Source: Alphaproteobacteria bacterium
GTDB lineage: Bacteria; Pseudomonadota; Alphaproteobacteria; CAAHEQ01; UBA3637
Assembly: GCA_015062395.1 (NCBI GenBank)
Contig: SUUS01000012.1
Span: forward strand, 1 to 35,741
DNA length: 35,741 bases
Direction of reading: 5' to 3'
In this document: positions 144 through 21,313 of the stretch, in pieces
Position numbering within the stretch: the first letter of the stretch is position 1
How the letters are laid out: the number at the start of each line of letters is the position of its first letter
Program-made: the position numbers and the translations under genes
Notes under the pieces: model-generated
Told to the model about the DNA's origin: nothing
Database searches by the model: none
What the model saw: the letters and a program-made list of their open reading frames with translations, nothing else

Positions 144-175
144 AAAAAAGATTTCCCCGTAAAAACGGGGAAATC
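144..175 (-). terminator. Rho-independent terminator (oad operon and candidate sRNA)
   Basis: An 11-bp perfect stem (150-160 with 165-175, GATTTCCCCGT / ACGGGGAAATC) with a 4-nt loop is followed, reading the minus strand, by six T residues (149-144). It ends transcription coming from the TPR-methyltransferase/oad genes and also that from the promoter at 245-273. Confidence 0.85.
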
Positions 176-239
176 CTCCTGAACAACTTATCAAAAAAGG
201 AGATTTTGAATAAATAAAGGGGAGTTCCTTTTTTGATTT
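144..239 (-). ncRNA. Candidate small RNA downstream of the oad operon
   Basis: A complete transcription unit without an ORF. The promoter at 245-273 would start RNA near 239. Two or three bases later an 11-bp stem forms (236-226 with 201-191, TCAAAAAAGGA / TCCTTTTTTGA) closing a 24-nt loop. A short single-stranded stretch with AGGAGG follows, then the terminator hairpin and T-run. This is the usual architecture of a trans-acting bacterial sRNA. The loop carries ACTCCCCTTT (225-216), which can form 10 contiguous pairs, one of them G-U, with the ribosome-binding site of oadA (4618-4609). An alternative fold pairs AAATCTCCT with AGGAGGATTT, so an attenuator for a gene beyond position 1 is also possible. 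Expression is unproven. Confidence 0.5.
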
Positions 240-244
240 TTAAT

Positions 245-273
245 AATCTAACATATATTTTTAGTTTTGTCAA
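245..273 (-). promoter_or_regulatory. Sigma70-type promoter for the candidate sRNA
   Basis: On the minus strand TTGACA (273-268), a 17-nt spacer and TAGATT (250-245) preceded by TGT, an extended -10. The -35 box abuts the stop codon of the TPR-methyltransferase gene (274-276), so it can only serve something between there and the terminator, or beyond. Confidence 0.6.
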
Positions 274-1593
274 CTATTTTTTTATTTTTTTTACAACATA
301 AAAATACTTTTTATCATGTATCACTTCTTCCAGCCCATCTTGCATCGATTGAATCGACACAATTTCGAAACCGTTTTTCTTTAATGCATAACGGACATAA
401 CTTTCTGAAAAAATATACGAAAATGGAGGATATAAAACAACATCATCATCGTTTAATGTGTTGCGACGAATCGAAAAGAAAAACATTCCATCTTCTTTTA
501 AAACACGATTAAATTTAGAAAATGCAACATCTAAATCCTTAAAAAACGGTAAACTTGATGAAGCTACTAAAATATCAAATGGTTCTGCTTGTCTGTCAAT
601 CCATGACAAAACTTCTTCGTTTTCAAGTTGCGAGTAAACATTTTTGCTTTCTGCCTGCTCCAACAACGTTTTTGAAACATCCACACCTACCAACTTACCA
701 TTTGAAGTATAACCACGTAAAGCTAAAGCTCCTAAACCAGTTCCACAGCCAATATCCAATGCAGTTAAATCATTTTGATTTGCATAAATTGGCATCAACG
801 CATTCTCCAACATATTAATAAAAGTAATTGCTTCATCTTGATTCGCATCATCATAAGAATAACCTATGGCATCAAATGCTGCACTTAAACGCTCTGTCGT
901 TAGAGGCGTATAATTCATTTGCTTCGAAGACAAAATTGGTGCGACATCAGAAACAATTTGATGTCCAGAAAATTCTTTTTGCCATTGCTGGATAAATTCC
1001 ATAACTTTTTTCAATGGTACGCCATTTTGCATAAAAAATGCCAAAGTAGCGGCCATTTGCAACTGTAATGCATTATTTTTAGGATAGATTTTCAATAATT
1101 GCATTAATAAATTAAATGCTTCTTCAGGTTCTTCTTGTTTCGAATAAAGTTCTGCAACATAGGATCCCAAAACGATATTTTCTGGATCAAACGTCAATGC
1201 TCTGTGATAGGAATACATTGCCTGTTCAGGGAAGCCCAGTAAAGATAAAACATTTCCACAAATTAAGTATGGATCTGGAAAATCTGGGTCCATTAAAACA
1301 GCAGCATCTGCAGCATTTAAAGCACCAACATAATCTTTCAATGTATAAAGAACAGAAGCGTAATTTGTTCTGGCAACGACATCATTTGGATCATACATAA
1401 TAGCCCAACGATAGGCTGTCAAAGCACCATCCAAATCGCCTTTTTCTCGCAAAGCATTCCCTTTAAAAACGTATAATAATCCAAAATCTGGATTTTCTTT
1501 TAAATAATCTTCAACTTCATACAACAGCTGATCATACTGACCTGTACTGTCCAATACGCTTAACTTATTAACAACTTCTTCCTCTGTAATCAT
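274..1593 (-). CDS. TPR-repeat protein with C-terminal SAM-dependent methyltransferase
   Basis: 439 residues. Residues about 35-200 form tetratricopeptide helices, with units such as GDLDGALTAYRWAIMYDPND followed by similar 34-residue repeats. Residues about 225-439 are a class I methyltransferase fold: motif I is DIGCGTGLGALAL, followed by an acidic strand end GVDVS and a motif-IV-like FDILVASSSLPFF. The combination resembles the TPR-methyltransferases common in Alphaproteobacteria, whose substrates are mostly unknown. It is the last gene of the run oadG-oadA-oadB, 9 bp after oadB, so it is probably co-transcribed; nothing in the sequence links it biochemically to the decarboxylase. No signal peptide, so cytoplasmic. 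The substrate (protein or small molecule) cannot be told. Confidence 0.8.
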   Translation of the reverse strand: MITEEEVVNKLSVLDSTGQYDQLLYEVEDYLKENPDFGLLYVFKGNALREKGDLDGALTAYRWAIMYDPNDVVARTNYASVLYTLKDYVGALNAADAAVLMDPDFPDPYLICGNVLSLLGFPEQAMYSYHRALTFDPENIVLGSYVAELYSKQEEPEEAFNLLMQLLKIYPKNNALQLQMAATLAFFMQNGVPLKKVMEFIQQWQKEFSGHQIVSDVAPILSSKQMNYTPLTTERLSAAFDAIGYSYDDANQDEAITFINMLENALMPIYANQNDLTALDIGCGTGLGALALRGYTSNGKLVGVDVSKTLLEQAESKNVYSQLENEEVLSWIDRQAEPFDILVASSSLPFFKDLDVAFSKFNRVLKEDGMFFFSIRRNTLNDDDVVLYPPFSYIFSESYVRYALKKNGFEIVSIQSMQDGLEEVIHDKKYFYVVKKIKK

Positions 1594-1602
1594 CTTTTTT
1601 TC

Positions 1603-2799
1603 CTATCCACACAAAGTTAATAAAATACCTGCTGCAACAGCTGAACCGATAGAACCTGCAACATTTGGTCCCATTGCATGCATCAACAAATAATTCGAAG
1701 GGTCGGCTTGTTGCCCCAATTTATTGGAAACTCTTGCCGCCATTGGAATCGCTGAAACACCAGCTGAACCAATTAACGGATTAATTTTTTCCTTACAAAA
1801 AACATTCATCAATTTTGCCATCAAGACACCACTGGCAGTTCCTAAACTAAATGCAATTACGCCTAGAACCAAAATAAAAAGGGTTTTTGGAACTAAAAAC
1901 GATGACGCAATCATTTTAGAGCCAACAGCTAACCCTAAAAATATCGTAATCGTGTTAATTAACGCATTCTGTAAAGTATCGCTTAATCTGTCTGTGACAC
2001 CACTTTCACGTAATAAATTTCCAAACATTAAAGCTCCGATTAAAGGAGTTGCTGATGGAAAAAACAACACACATAACAATAAAACTGTTAAAGGAAATAA
2101 AATTCGTTCCTTTTGAGATACATCTCTTAATTGACGCATTTTAATTTGACGCTCTTTTTGTGTTGTCAATGCGCGCATAATTGGCGGTTGAATAATCGGA
2201 ACCAAAGCCATATAAGAATATGCCGCGACGGCTACTGCAGCCAATAAATCAGGAGCCAAACGTGTTGTTAAATAAATAGACGTAGGTCCATCTGCCCCTC
2301 CTATAATCCCAATAGAAGCAGCTTCTTTCATTGAAAATTGGGCAAAAGGAAATAAATCACCCAACCACAAAGCCCCCAATAAAGTACCAAAAATTCCAAA
2401 TTGAGCTGCTGCACCTAATAAAAAAGTCTTTGGATTTGCTATTACAGGGGAAAAGTCCGTCATAGCACCAACCCCCATAAAAATCAATAATGGAAACAAA
2501 GTATTCGCTATCCCCATTTGATATAAGACATGCAATAAACCTGGTGGTGTTGTTGCTGTCCCAGCATCAACCAAACCAGCAAATGGAATGTTTGCTAAAA
2601 TCCCTCCGAATGCAATAGGAACCAACAGTAAAGGTTCAAACTTTTTTGCTATCCCCAAATAAAGTAAAGCCAAACAGATAAGAAGCATAATAAATTGCCC
2701 TATCCCCAGAGGAAAGCCCCCTGAAATTGTGGCGCTTAAATCCCCAAAGAAACCGTAAAGCCCAGTTTGTTCCCACAAAGAAAGAAATTTTTCAAGCAT
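1603..2799 (-). CDS. oadB: Oxaloacetate decarboxylase beta subunit (Na+ pump)
   Basis: 398 residues, mostly hydrophobic, with about ten membrane segments. It is the Na+-translocating subunit that decarboxylates carboxybiotin on the alpha subunit and exports Na+. Two family signatures are visible: [14 protein letters not shown], containing the aspartate essential for Na+ transport in characterised homologues, and [18 protein letters not shown] near the C-terminus. The length is slightly below the usual 430 or so. The same family covers methylmalonyl-CoA and glutaconyl-CoA decarboxylase beta subunits; the alpha subunit next door points to oxaloacetate. It lies 10 bp downstream of oadA and should be made together with it. 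Confidence 0.93.
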
Positions 2800-2809
2800 G
2801 CGTTTTTCC

Positions 2810-4606
2810 TTATTCTAAAATGAATAACTTTTGACCTGCAGAAACCTGATTTCCTTTAGAAACCAAAATTTCCTTTATTCGACCATCTTTAGTTGCCTTT
2901 ACTGGATTTTCCATTTTCATAACTTCTAAAACCAATACATCATCACCAGCATGAACGACATCGCCTTGTGATACATTAATTTTTACAATCGTACCAACCA
3001 TCGGAGACAAAACAACATCAGAAGTTCCGTTCGTAGTATTTACTTCTTTTGATTTTTCTTCTGTATTTTTTGTTTCAAGCTCAAAAGAATAAGATTTGCC
3101 ATTAACAATAGCTTCGTTATCTTTCAAATCAACAGTAAATTTTTGCCCGTTAATAATAATTTGAGAAACAGAACTTTCTTTTTTCTCTTGAGGCTTTTCT
3201 TGATAACGAACCAAGACCTTTCCTTCCCCCTTTAAGTAAGCGATACCTTTATCTGAACACGTTGCAGCAATAAAGATATTTTCATCCGTAATTGGTAAAT
3301 TTTCTGCCTGCAATTTTGCTTTGGCTGCAGCAATTCCCTTATTTGGATTTTCATCGTTCAACAAACGAGGAGATTTCTTTGTTGGCTCTAAACCTAATTG
3401 TTCGGATGCGATTTTGACAACATCTTTATCTGGCGTTTTCGGAGTTCTTCCAAAATACCCCAAAACCATTTTTCCATAACCTTCTGCAATTTTTTTCCAA
3501 GGACCAATAATAACATTATTAAATGCCTGTTGGAAATAAAATTGAGAAACTGGCGTCACAGATGTTCCGAAACCACCCTTTCGAACAACCTCTTCCATAG
3601 CAGTAATAATCTCGCTATATTTATCCATAATTCCATTATCTCGTAGCATCTGTGTATTGGAGGTCAATGCACCACCAGGCATAGGGCTCCAAGGAATACG
3701 TGGTTCAACACAAACAGCTTCTGGAGGCAAAAAATAATCTTTCATTGCATCTTTAAATGCCTCTTCAACTTTCATAAGAGCATCAACATCAACATCCAAA
3801 TCATAATTTGTATTACGCAAAGCATGCCAAATCGTTGCTATATCAGGCTGACAAGTTCCTCCTGAAACAGGAGCCATAGACAAGTCAACAATATCAGCAC
3901 CTGCCTCAACAGCTGCCAAATAACAAGCAGTACCAACACCAGCAGTTTCGTGCGAATGAAACTCAATAGGAACATTTTTTCCCAACAACTTACGCGCTCT
4001 GATAATTGTATCATAAACAACCGAAGGGACTGTTGTTCCTGACGCATCTTTAAAACAAACAGAATCGAAAGGAATTTCCGCCTTTAATATATTCTTTAAT
4101 GTTTTTTCATAAAATTCTGGCGTATGAGCCCCAACACATCCTGGAGGTAAAGACATCATAGCGATTGCAATTTGATGCTGTAAACCAGCATCCACAATAC
4201 ATTGGCCACTAAATGCCAGATTATCTGGATCATTCAATGCATCAAAATTGCGAATCATAGATACGCCATGTTTTTTAAATAATTGTGCATGTAAACGAAT
4301 AATATCAGAACTTTGGCTATCTAAACCAACAACATTAACGCCTCTTGCTAAAGTTTGCAAATGAACATCTGGTCCAACCGTAGATCTGAATTCATCCATA
4401 ACATCAAAAGCATTTTGATTTAAATAAAAGAAAGCTGACTGAAAAGCAGCGCCTCCACCAGACTCAAAACGTTTAATTCCCGCATCTTTAGCCATTTTAA
4501 CAATCGGCATATAATCTTTTGGTAAAACGCGAGAACCATAAACAGACTGGAATCCATCCCTAAACGCTGTACATAAAACCTGAATTTTTTTCTTTCCAAT
4601 CGCCAT
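2810..4606 (-). CDS. oadA: Oxaloacetate decarboxylase alpha subunit (biotin carboxyl carrier fused)
   Basis: 598 residues. Residues 8 to about 290 are the HMGL-like carboxyltransferase TIM barrel: TAFRDGFQS with D17, K186 in CFKDASG, and H217/H219 in FHSHETAG are the expected metal and substrate ligands. A conserved carboxylase domain follows, then a low-complexity linker (about 475-525) and a biotinyl domain with K564 in EVMKMENP. There is no biotin carboxylase domain, so with OadB and OadG next to it this is a decarboxylase that transfers CO2 from oxaloacetate to biotin, not an ATP-dependent carboxylase. The opening TAFRDGFQS differs from the usual DTTLRDAHQS, placing it in a divergent branch. 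A strong ribosome-binding site GGGGGAG lies across the end of oadG, 4 nt before the ATG. Confidence 0.92.
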
Positions 4607-4786
4607 TTACTCCCCCTTTTGTTTTAATGCAATTGCTATTGCAACAGCCACCTGTTCTGCATCAGAAGAAACTGCTGTTTTACGAACGAACCAAGACATT
4701 AAGTGTATTGTCAACATTAATACGTATAAAAACGCAAAAACAGATAACATCCCAAATAATGTAATCAGTAAACCATCAAGCAACAT
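4607..4786 (-). CDS. oadG: Oxaloacetate decarboxylase gamma subunit
   Basis: 59 residues with the chosen start. One N-terminal membrane helix (LLDGLLITLFGMLSVFAFLYVLMLTIH is interrupted only by short polar spots) is followed by a short soluble tail ending in VAVAIAIALKQKGE, the alanine-rich tail typical of OadG, which holds the alpha and beta subunits together. An upstream ATG at 4813 is in frame, but GAGGGG sits 6 nt before the ATG at 4786, so the shorter form is preferred. Its TAA directly abuts the oadA ATG, which fits translational coupling. Confidence 0.85.
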   Translation of the reverse strand: MLLDGLLITLFGMLSVFAFLYVLMLTIHLMSWFVRKTAVSSDAEQVAVAIAIALKQKGE

Positions 4787-4833
4787 ATTCCCCTCATTTA
4801 TTATTCTATTCATTTAATCTTTTAACATGTTTC

Positions 4834-18309: not shown

Positions 18310-18657
18310 TTATTTCTTTACAGAACCATATAATGGTGTGATAATTTTTGCAGGTGATTTTACAGGAACTGGACTAATTTTTGATTTAGCAGCCTTTTTT
18401 GCAGGAGCCTTAATTGCCGAAGCAACTTTTACAACTGGTTTTGCATCCAAAGAATCCATTGACTTTGTTGCTTTTGAAGCTGTCTTTTTAGCAACTGCTT
18501 TTTTGGCAGGAGCTTTTGCTTTTTTATCATAGCCACAAGTTAAAAATTGTTCACATGCTAAAGACCAAAATTCTTCGGATTTGCCCTCTGGTTTACCCGC
18601 ATTTTCCCACATAAAATATGCAGCTGTACGAATGTATTCAATATCTTTTTCACTCAT
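18310..18657 (-). CDS. DUF2934 protein with histone H1-like tail
   Basis: 115 residues from the ATG at 18657, selected because GAGGAG lies 9 nt upstream; a TTG at 18663 would be too close to it. Residues about 5-45 form the DUF2934 helix pair (IRTAAYFMWENAGKPEGKSE, then FWSLACEQFL). Residues 48-115 are a low-complexity Lys/Ala/Pro repeat (KAPAKKAVAKK type), as in bacterial histone H1-like tails that bind DNA or RNA non-specifically. A nucleoid-associated role is inference. It has its own promoter (18703-18730) and terminator (18266-18291), so it is a single-gene unit. Confidence 0.8.
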   Translation of the reverse strand: MSEKDIEYIRTAAYFMWENAGKPEGKSEEFWSLACEQFLTCGYDKKAKAPAKKAVAKKTASKATKSMDSLDAKPVVKVASAIKAPAKKAAKSKISPVPVKSPAKIITPLYGSVKK

Positions 18658-18702
18658 TTTCAATATCTCCTCTTGTTCAGGAAAAAAATAACTACATTTC
18701 TT

Positions 18703-20569: not shown

Positions 20570-21313
20570 ATGTATAAGAACGATTCTTATCAAACTCAAA
20601 TAGAACGACATCCGATTTTACAACGGTTGGGATGCTCTGCTGTTAAAACAGAAACAACACATCCCCTCCCCAAAAGAAAACGTGTTTTACGTAGGAAAAA
20701 ATTTCACCGTAGCATTCAAAAAGTATTTGTAAAATATCTTTATCTTGTAGATTCACAGTCGATTAGAAAATTTTTTAATCAAAAAGAAATACTTGCTTTG
20801 CAACTGGGGGAATTACCTTCTAACTGGACTGTTCATCACCAAAAATCGATATTTTGGGGAGGAACAAATTTTAATCCAAAATTTGAACAGCAAATATATC
20901 AAACACCATTGACAAAAACACAGGAAAACAAATGCAAAAAACAACAAAACGCTGAAGAGTTAAAGCTGCGTTTTCAATTAGAGAACTTTTTACAAAATGC
21001 CCTGAAAAAAGGCCACTTAAAAAGAACTTTTTTAGAATTGTTCAAGGGCTATCTTATTGCTTTGCCCATAGATATTCATCGCAAATTGGAAGATGATTAT
21101 CTAAAACCACAGGAAGCACAAGCAACACAAGATGAAGAAACGAATCCATCCAATACCTTTAAGTATGAAATATCATATCCTATTTGGAATCAATTAATTT
21201 ATCATGGTCAAGATTTTAGTAAGAAAAAGCCCCCTCAAACAATAGGAAAACACAAAATTAAAGACACGCAAGAAAAAAATAAGAAGAAAGGACATTCTAA
21301 AGCTGATGATTAA
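20570..21313 (+). CDS. HNH-like protein, paralogue A
   Basis: 247 residues from the ATG at 20570 (AAAGGGG 6 nt upstream; the longer in-frame form would start inside the promoter). Not a family I can name. It is a clear paralogue of the next gene. The shared core is P-x-x-W-T-V-H-H-Q-K-S with H89-H90, then WGG (96-98) and N102, and after an insertion containing FQLENFLQNAL the segment LPIDIHRKLEDDYL with H170. The pattern HH...GG...N...LP..IH..L is what HNH/His-Me finger nucleases show, here with about 65 residues inserted before the last histidine. Both ends are Lys-rich (KRKRVLRRKK; C-terminal KKK runs), fitting nucleic-acid binding. No signal peptide. Nuclease activity is inference. Confidence 0.65.
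   Translation: MYKNDSYQTQIERHPILQRLGCSAVKTETTHPLPKRKRVLRRKKFHRSIQKVFVKYLYLVDSQSIRKFFNQKEILALQLGELPSNWTVHHQKSIFWGGTNFNPKFEQQIYQTPLTKTQENKCKKQQNAEELKLRFQLENFLQNALKKGHLKRTFLELFKGYLIALPIDIHRKLEDDYLKPQEAQATQDEETNPSNTFKYEISYPIWNQLIYHGQDFSKKKPPQTIGKHKIKDTQEKNKKKGHSKADD

Follow-up and report, generated by a model that had tools for sequence, protein, structure and literature searches.

A conserved small RNA gene with two predicted pairing arms at the end of an oxaloacetate decarboxylase operon in an alphaproteobacterial clade

Results

A conserved small RNA gene behind the oad operon

Sequence comparison identifies the minus strand from 239 to 144 of the window (by which we mean the whole 35,741-nt stretch of DNA analysed here) as a genuine gene for a small regulatory RNA not catalogued before, conserved, structured and equipped with a putative promoter of its own. 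We think it probable that this small RNA (sRNA) is independently transcribed, is likely to be bound by Hfq and acts in trans through two unpaired arms, repressing translation by covering ribosome-binding regions: the linker between its hairpins would serve as the seed for the leader of a DUF2934 gene, and its C-rich loop would pair with G-rich ribosome-binding sites (RBSs). The element comprises the following features.

Positions 268-273, minus strand: -35 element TTGACA, exact in 8/8 homologues; the 17-nt length of the spacer is kept while its sequence diverges.
Positions 245-250, minus strand: -10 element TAGATT, extended (TG ahead); homologues have, at the same spacing, TATTTT, TATTCT, TATGAT, TATAAA, TAAAGT or TATAAT.
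Positions 144-239, minus strand: predicted small RNA of about 96 nt, its 5' end placed from the promoter (RNAfold z = -5.4; covariance model).
Positions 190-237, minus strand: hairpin 1, conserved, 12 bp (237-226 with 201-190) with a 24-nt loop (225-202).
Positions 216-225, minus strand: C-rich anti-Shine-Dalgarno loop motif ACUCCCCUUU; CUCCCC in 7/8 homologues, UUCCCC in genome G001.
Positions 177-187, minus strand: invariant linker seed GUUGUUCAGGA, from hairpin 1 to the terminator, identical in 8/8 (11 nt).
Positions 145-180, minus strand: intrinsic terminator, 16-bp stem and T run, with at least six compensatory pairs across homologues.

The promoter-like sequence, TTGACA (273-268) and TAGATT with an extended -10 (250-245), lies immediately 3' of the stop codon of the gene at 274-1593, the last of the oad run, just as an earlier sequence-only reading of this DNA had described it. 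Such hexamers are no more frequent in the window than expected by chance (19 seen, 20.4 expected), so conservation had to decide whether the element is real. All eight copies keep TTGACA, the 17-nt spacer, a -10-like hexamer TAnnnT, both hairpins, a UCCCC-containing loop and the linker, and, judged from these sequences, conservation is the feature that lifts the combination of promoter and hairpin above chance.

The sRNA folds at -34.2 kcal/mol, compared with -18.2 ± 3.0 kcal/mol for shuffled sequences. Hairpin 1 and its 24-nt loop are present as first described, except that the stem has 12 bp rather than 11; its closing pair is A-U in six genomes, with G-U and G-C in one genome each (one compensatory change), and the hairpin also carries several A-U/G-U changes across homologues. 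In six representative folds, the loop motif is unpaired with a probability of 0.82-0.99 and the linker seed with a mean probability of 0.57-0.84; in the window's own copy, 9 nt of linker separate hairpin 1 from the terminator stem. The terminator (180-145), which had been called strong, is conserved with compensatory pairs. No second terminator was seen between 274 and 239, and this one is probably common to the sRNA and the oad-methyltransferase mRNA. A small open reading frame inside the sRNA was rejected on inspection of the eight copies, in which the short ATG frames vary between genomes.

Distribution

In a DNA search of 96 genomes, among them the window's own, six relatives gave clear homologues. 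A covariance model built from the seven copies added one more, which brought the total to 8 of the family's 43 genomes; these score 79-104 bits, and the best covariance match after them 39 bits. The sRNA-bearing genomes fall in three genera (g1, g6 and g9) and amount to one clade. They are alphaproteobacterial metagenome assemblies, partly gut-derived and one of them from yak rumen, and all eight encode Hfq. When 84,980 species genomes were scanned for the exact core (CCTTTTTTGA..GTTGTTCAGGA), seven of the relatives were recovered, all of them alphaproteobacterial metagenome assemblies. Six unrelated contigs that also matched the core scored at most 32 bits with the covariance model and were treated as chance, and a match in Desulfuromonadales (L161) consists of a strong hairpin ahead of the shared motif, again a chance match. 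Among the weak covariance matches, those in G041, G033, G018 and G034 are plain hairpin and terminator pairs, and those in G027, G007 and G014 represent a different sRNA. Rfam gave no match in the window at the gathering threshold and, at E ≤ 1, nothing relevant for the representative copies.

The different sRNA is an observation in its own right. It was seen in other genera of the family, in G027 (L054:1400-1640), G007 (L056, reverse), G014 (L059:1400-1640) and G024 (L029, reverse), and consists of a promoter, a small 5' hairpin, one stem whose loop UUUAGUCUCCCUAUAU is invariant, another whose loop is C5-8/U-rich, and a terminator. It shows several compensatory pairs, its flanking genes differ among the three copies examined, and three copies had no Rfam match. 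Separately, positions 61-115 of the window, near the contig end, resemble TTTTTGGGAAAAACTCAAGAGATTCTTCG..CAGAATGACG, which is also found at the start of L142 (contig C28), and represent a dispersed intergenic repeat.

The linker arm and the DUF2934 gene

The loop had originally been taken as the key pairing site. The C-rich loop is indeed kept, but the most conserved unpaired stretch of the sRNA is the linker, which exceeds the loop in conservation and whose complement in the leader of a DUF2934 gene had been missed.

Positions 18310-18657, minus strand: DUF2934 gene with a Lys/Ala-rich tail (Pfam DUF2934, E = 2.4e-9).
Positions 18673-18686, minus strand: DUF2934 leader site UUUUUCCUGAACAA, which complements linker 186-175; orthologous site in 7/8 genomes.

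The exact complement of ten linker bases, TCCTGAACAA, occurs at 59 non-self sites in the eight genomes, compared with 35 for the reversed control (binomial p = 0.009). All but a few of the 59 sites were fetched and inspected; most are intragenic, and among those inspected the DUF2934 gene is the only orthologous gene that recurs with the site in its leader. It encodes a protein of 99-118 amino acids with an N-terminal DUF2934 domain ahead of the Lys/Ala-rich tail, and in 7/8 genomes the site stands directly 5' of its Shine-Dalgarno sequence (GGAG). The predicted linker-leader duplex has 13-15 pairs and an energy of -17.3 to -20.3 kcal/mol; of the 870 RBSs sampled, just 0-4 pair better. A 14-nt island in the leader is 100% conserved, compared with mostly 43-71% in the neighbouring columns. 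The search itself fixes ten of the 14 columns, since it required the 10-mer that the seven DUF2934 leaders share; independent support comes from the recurrence of the same gene and from four more U residues 5' of the 10-mer that are also kept. The gene was not found in the ~40% of G001 that was examined, nor in ~380 kb of two genomes from sRNA-lacking genera, and literature searches on DUF2934 returned nothing relevant. On this complementarity, the gene for the Lys/Ala-rich DUF2934 protein is the best-supported candidate target, which would be reached through the linker rather than the loop.

Two longer complements were rejected as conserved targets and are lineage-specific leads. In G001, a 25-nt perfect complement over the RBS of lemA (L038:1500-1525) pairs with the 3' arm of the hairpin and the linker, and is absent from the seven other genomes. 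The same two parts of the sRNA have a 20-nt complement over the RBS of a DUF7557-like gene, seen in the window's genome (G000) only. This 68-aa gene (L004:1370-1530, contig C35 of G000) has four CGAGTCG/CGACTCG repeats upstream and an outer-membrane-efflux-like gene downstream.

The loop arm and the oad operon

The sRNA gene follows a run of oad genes, in which two RBSs are complementary to the loop.

Positions 274-1593, minus strand: TPR-methyltransferase gene, last of the oad run (Pfam TPR, Methyltransf_11/12/25).
Positions 1603-2799, minus strand: oadB (Pfam OAD_beta, E = 2.8e-160).
Positions 2810-4606, minus strand: oadA (Pfam PYC_OADA and biotinyl domains).
Positions 4607-4786, minus strand: oadG, start re-assigned to 4786 (Pfam OAD_gamma on 4607-4813; an internal ATG with a proper Shine-Dalgarno sequence was chosen).
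Positions 4609-4618, minus strand: oadA RBS AAGGGGGAGU; ten loop pairs, one of them G-U, in a duplex of -17.1 kcal/mol (7th of 525).
Positions 4787-4802, minus strand: oadG RBS AAUAAAUGAGGGGAAU; forms a bulged duplex of -16.5 kcal/mol with loop 225-207 (9th of 525).

Potential targets were ranked in about one-third of G000 (chosen partly around BLAST hits), ~40% of G001 and small samples elsewhere, that is, on partial genomes, with a simple start-codon caller and with duplex energies that leave target accessibility aside. The match that had first drawn attention to oadA, ten pairs including one G-U between loop 225-216 and the RBS at 4618-4609, is correct as described but not exceptional alone, oadA ranking 7th-9th among the 508-525 genes sampled in G000. 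In the same ranking oadG is 9th-10th, and a 7-bp match reported ahead of the gene at 20570 is only about 22nd and unremarkable. Across genomes, oadA has a good loop match in only 3/8 (2/402 in G001), and oadG is the more constant site, ranking 1/38, 1/31, 2/52, 1/48 and 2/43 in five relatives with small background samples. The better of the two lies within the best 0.3-3.3% of an 870-RBS pool in all eight sRNA-bearing genomes, whereas the same loops place the oadG RBSs of 20 sRNA-lacking genomes at the 18th percentile on average (p = 0.0005 by genome); averaged by genus, p is 0.07 for oadG and 0.03 for the better of oadG and oadA. Because G-rich oad RBSs also occur in several sRNA-lacking genera and the genus-level p is borderline, feedback on oad by loop pairing is a tentative proposal. 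Literature searches on oad-targeting sRNAs returned nothing relevant.

Of the feedback on oad translation that the sequence-only reading had suggested, then, the pairing of the loop with the oadA and oadG RBSs stands, and the regulatory claim is weakened by the same genus-level values and G-rich sites. Whether such feedback, with the loop masking the RBS of oadG, oadA or both, could even be the main job of the sRNA is a question on which we lean slightly to the negative: the high ranks, the better pairing in sRNA-bearing genomes and the fixed position of the sRNA at the operon end speak for autoregulation, but many sRNA-lacking relatives have equally G-rich oad RBSs, the pairing partner switches between oadG and oadA across genera, and other genes outrank oad in G000.

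The genes at the top of the G000 loop ranking are those for a 250-aa predicted secreted protein and for glgB, each with 17 nt of complementarity. BLAST had already matched both to the sRNA, which means that their inclusion in the sample was not blind. In both g1 genomes the loop finds its best complement in the RBS of the secreted protein, which has no Pfam match (L121:4677 in G000, L209:7326 in G001). These matches are what one would predict of a general anti-Shine-Dalgarno RNA that uses its loop on numerous G-rich RBSs (glgB, the 250-aa protein, oad and others), with the linker as fine-tuning. We regard this explanation as possible but rather unlikely, given that shuffled loops reach similar best loop-RBS energies in 2/30 trials, that glgB RBSs are G-rich throughout the family regardless of the sRNA (p = 0.08) and that conservation is higher in the linker than in the loop. 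As a conserved target, glgB was rejected: its match is strong in G000 and g9 and nonexistent in g6. In most genera the RBSs of this branching-enzyme gene are G-rich and resemble AAGGGGAGA, whether the sRNA is present or not (L144-L150, L247-L269), and glgB leaders are perhaps regulated by other sRNAs with C-rich loops.

Genomic place and origin

The sRNA adjoins the methyltransferase gene in 8/8 genomes. The seven relatives share the arrangement (oadG-oadA-oadB)-TPR/methyltransferase-[sRNA]-ssb, and gyrA follows in every contig stretch long enough to show it; a small HTH gene stands between the sRNA and ssb in two of the seven, and in G017 the oad genes are on a separate contig from the sRNA. 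In G000, the contig stops 143 bases past the sRNA. The original proposal of an sRNA gene on the 3' side of the oad operon is borne out by the separate promoter and by the matches in relatives, and hairpin, loop and terminator, on whose conservation beside conserved neighbours that proposal had been staked, are kept where synteny is kept. Three sRNA-lacking genera that were inspected retain the order oadB..ssb-gyrA, with a plain terminator at this place in two and a different gene in one. The simplest reading would be that the sRNA gene arose within the clade, a promoter and a hairpin having been added ahead of the oad operon terminator, which would still be shared with the operon mRNA.

The plain terminators in genera without the sRNA, and the frequency of promoter-like hexamers by chance, would also suit a mere operon terminator accompanied by an incidental hairpin and promoter-like sequence, with no function in trans. 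We consider this very improbable in view of the exact TTGACA at fixed spacing in 8/8 genomes, the invariant unpaired linker and the conserved unpaired loop, none of which termination needs, and of the matching conserved DUF2934 leader. Slimmer still is the chance that the element is a leader or attenuator of the co-directional ssb gene, which begins 110-240 nt past the terminator in 5/7 relatives, as the DNA between terminator and ssb has its own promoter-like, family-wide stretch (TTTTTTGTAAAAAA..TATGCT) that is present also without the sRNA, no convincing antiterminator was seen, and the HTH gene intervenes in two genomes.

Discussion

The existence of the element, its conserved structure, promoter, location and complementarity, and the presence of Hfq are what was computed here. 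The preferred reading, a two-arm sRNA acting in trans, builds on these as follows. The promoter near 273-245 would give rise to a discrete sRNA that starts at about 239 and ends at the terminator. Its single-stranded linker GUUGUUCAGGAAAG would be the conserved seed and pair just upstream of the DUF2934 Shine-Dalgarno sequence, and the C-rich hairpin loop CUCCCCUUU would provide a second, more general anti-Shine-Dalgarno arm for G-rich RBSs, including those of oadG and oadA. Pairing 5' of GGAG at DUF2934, or across a G-rich Shine-Dalgarno sequence, would block ribosome loading. Such a block by pairing in the RBS region is what known sRNA biology leads one to expect.

The element has sequence features of trans-acting sRNAs in general: it encodes a discrete structured RNA, conserved, with a promoter and terminator of its own and with an unpaired seed complementary to a conserved leader site (7/8). 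By sequence, it is a new family of a known kind, the trans-acting anti-Shine-Dalgarno sRNAs, its function being predicted. The closest parallel in layout is offered by AbcR1 and AbcR2 (alpha-r15, Sinorhizobium/Agrobacterium); in Sinorhizobium, AbcR1/2 act through two such motifs, located in the loop of the 5' hairpin and in the region separating the stem-loops (PMC8844928). The AbcR motifs aSD1 CUCCUCCC and aSD2 UUCCCCUC are, however, not found in the new sRNA, in which the loops read CUCCCC(C)UUU and the linker is the same in 8/8; it also differs in having two hairpins only, in its genomic place and clade, and in having no Rfam match. It is analogous to AbcR, with no homology shown by any test made here.

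Likewise, the NfeR1/cuckoo RNAs (alpha-r14) have a C-rich anti-Shine-Dalgarno loop, but there three identical motifs occur, whereas the new sRNA has one C-rich loop and the NfeR1-type motif CCUCCUCCC is absent from all eight of its sequences. SisA-D (alpha-r8) of Caulobacter are Hfq-dependent and have a conserved single-stranded seed after a hairpin (PMC12559287), as does the new sRNA, although their seed is UUUCCUCCCU and there is no sequence match. In Vibrio cholerae, OppZ and CarZ are operon-end sRNAs that can act on their own operon; RNase E releases them from the mRNA (PMC7398697). The new sRNA likewise has its gene at the 3' end of an operon and may target that operon; in contrast to OppZ and CarZ, it has its own conserved promoter (8/8), with additional processing possible, and its best-supported interaction lies outside its own operon.

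The literature searches made here returned no sRNA from this alphaproteobacterial lineage. The sRNA described here is compact, well conserved and apparently lineage-specific. Since a plain terminator occupies the interval between these genes in relatives that lack it, it may exemplify the gain of an sRNA gene at an operon end. A more speculative and rather doubtful extension is that a two-seed sRNA from the end of the oad operon links expression of the sodium-pump oxaloacetate decarboxylase, through the loop, to that of the histone-H1-like, lysine-rich DUF2934 protein, through the linker, which would amount to metabolic control of a putative nucleoid or nucleic-acid-binding protein. If the two-arm reading is true, DUF2934, a Lys/Ala-rich protein whose function is unknown, would become part of a regulatory circuit, and the two-motif logic of AbcR would have evolved again from unrelated sequence.
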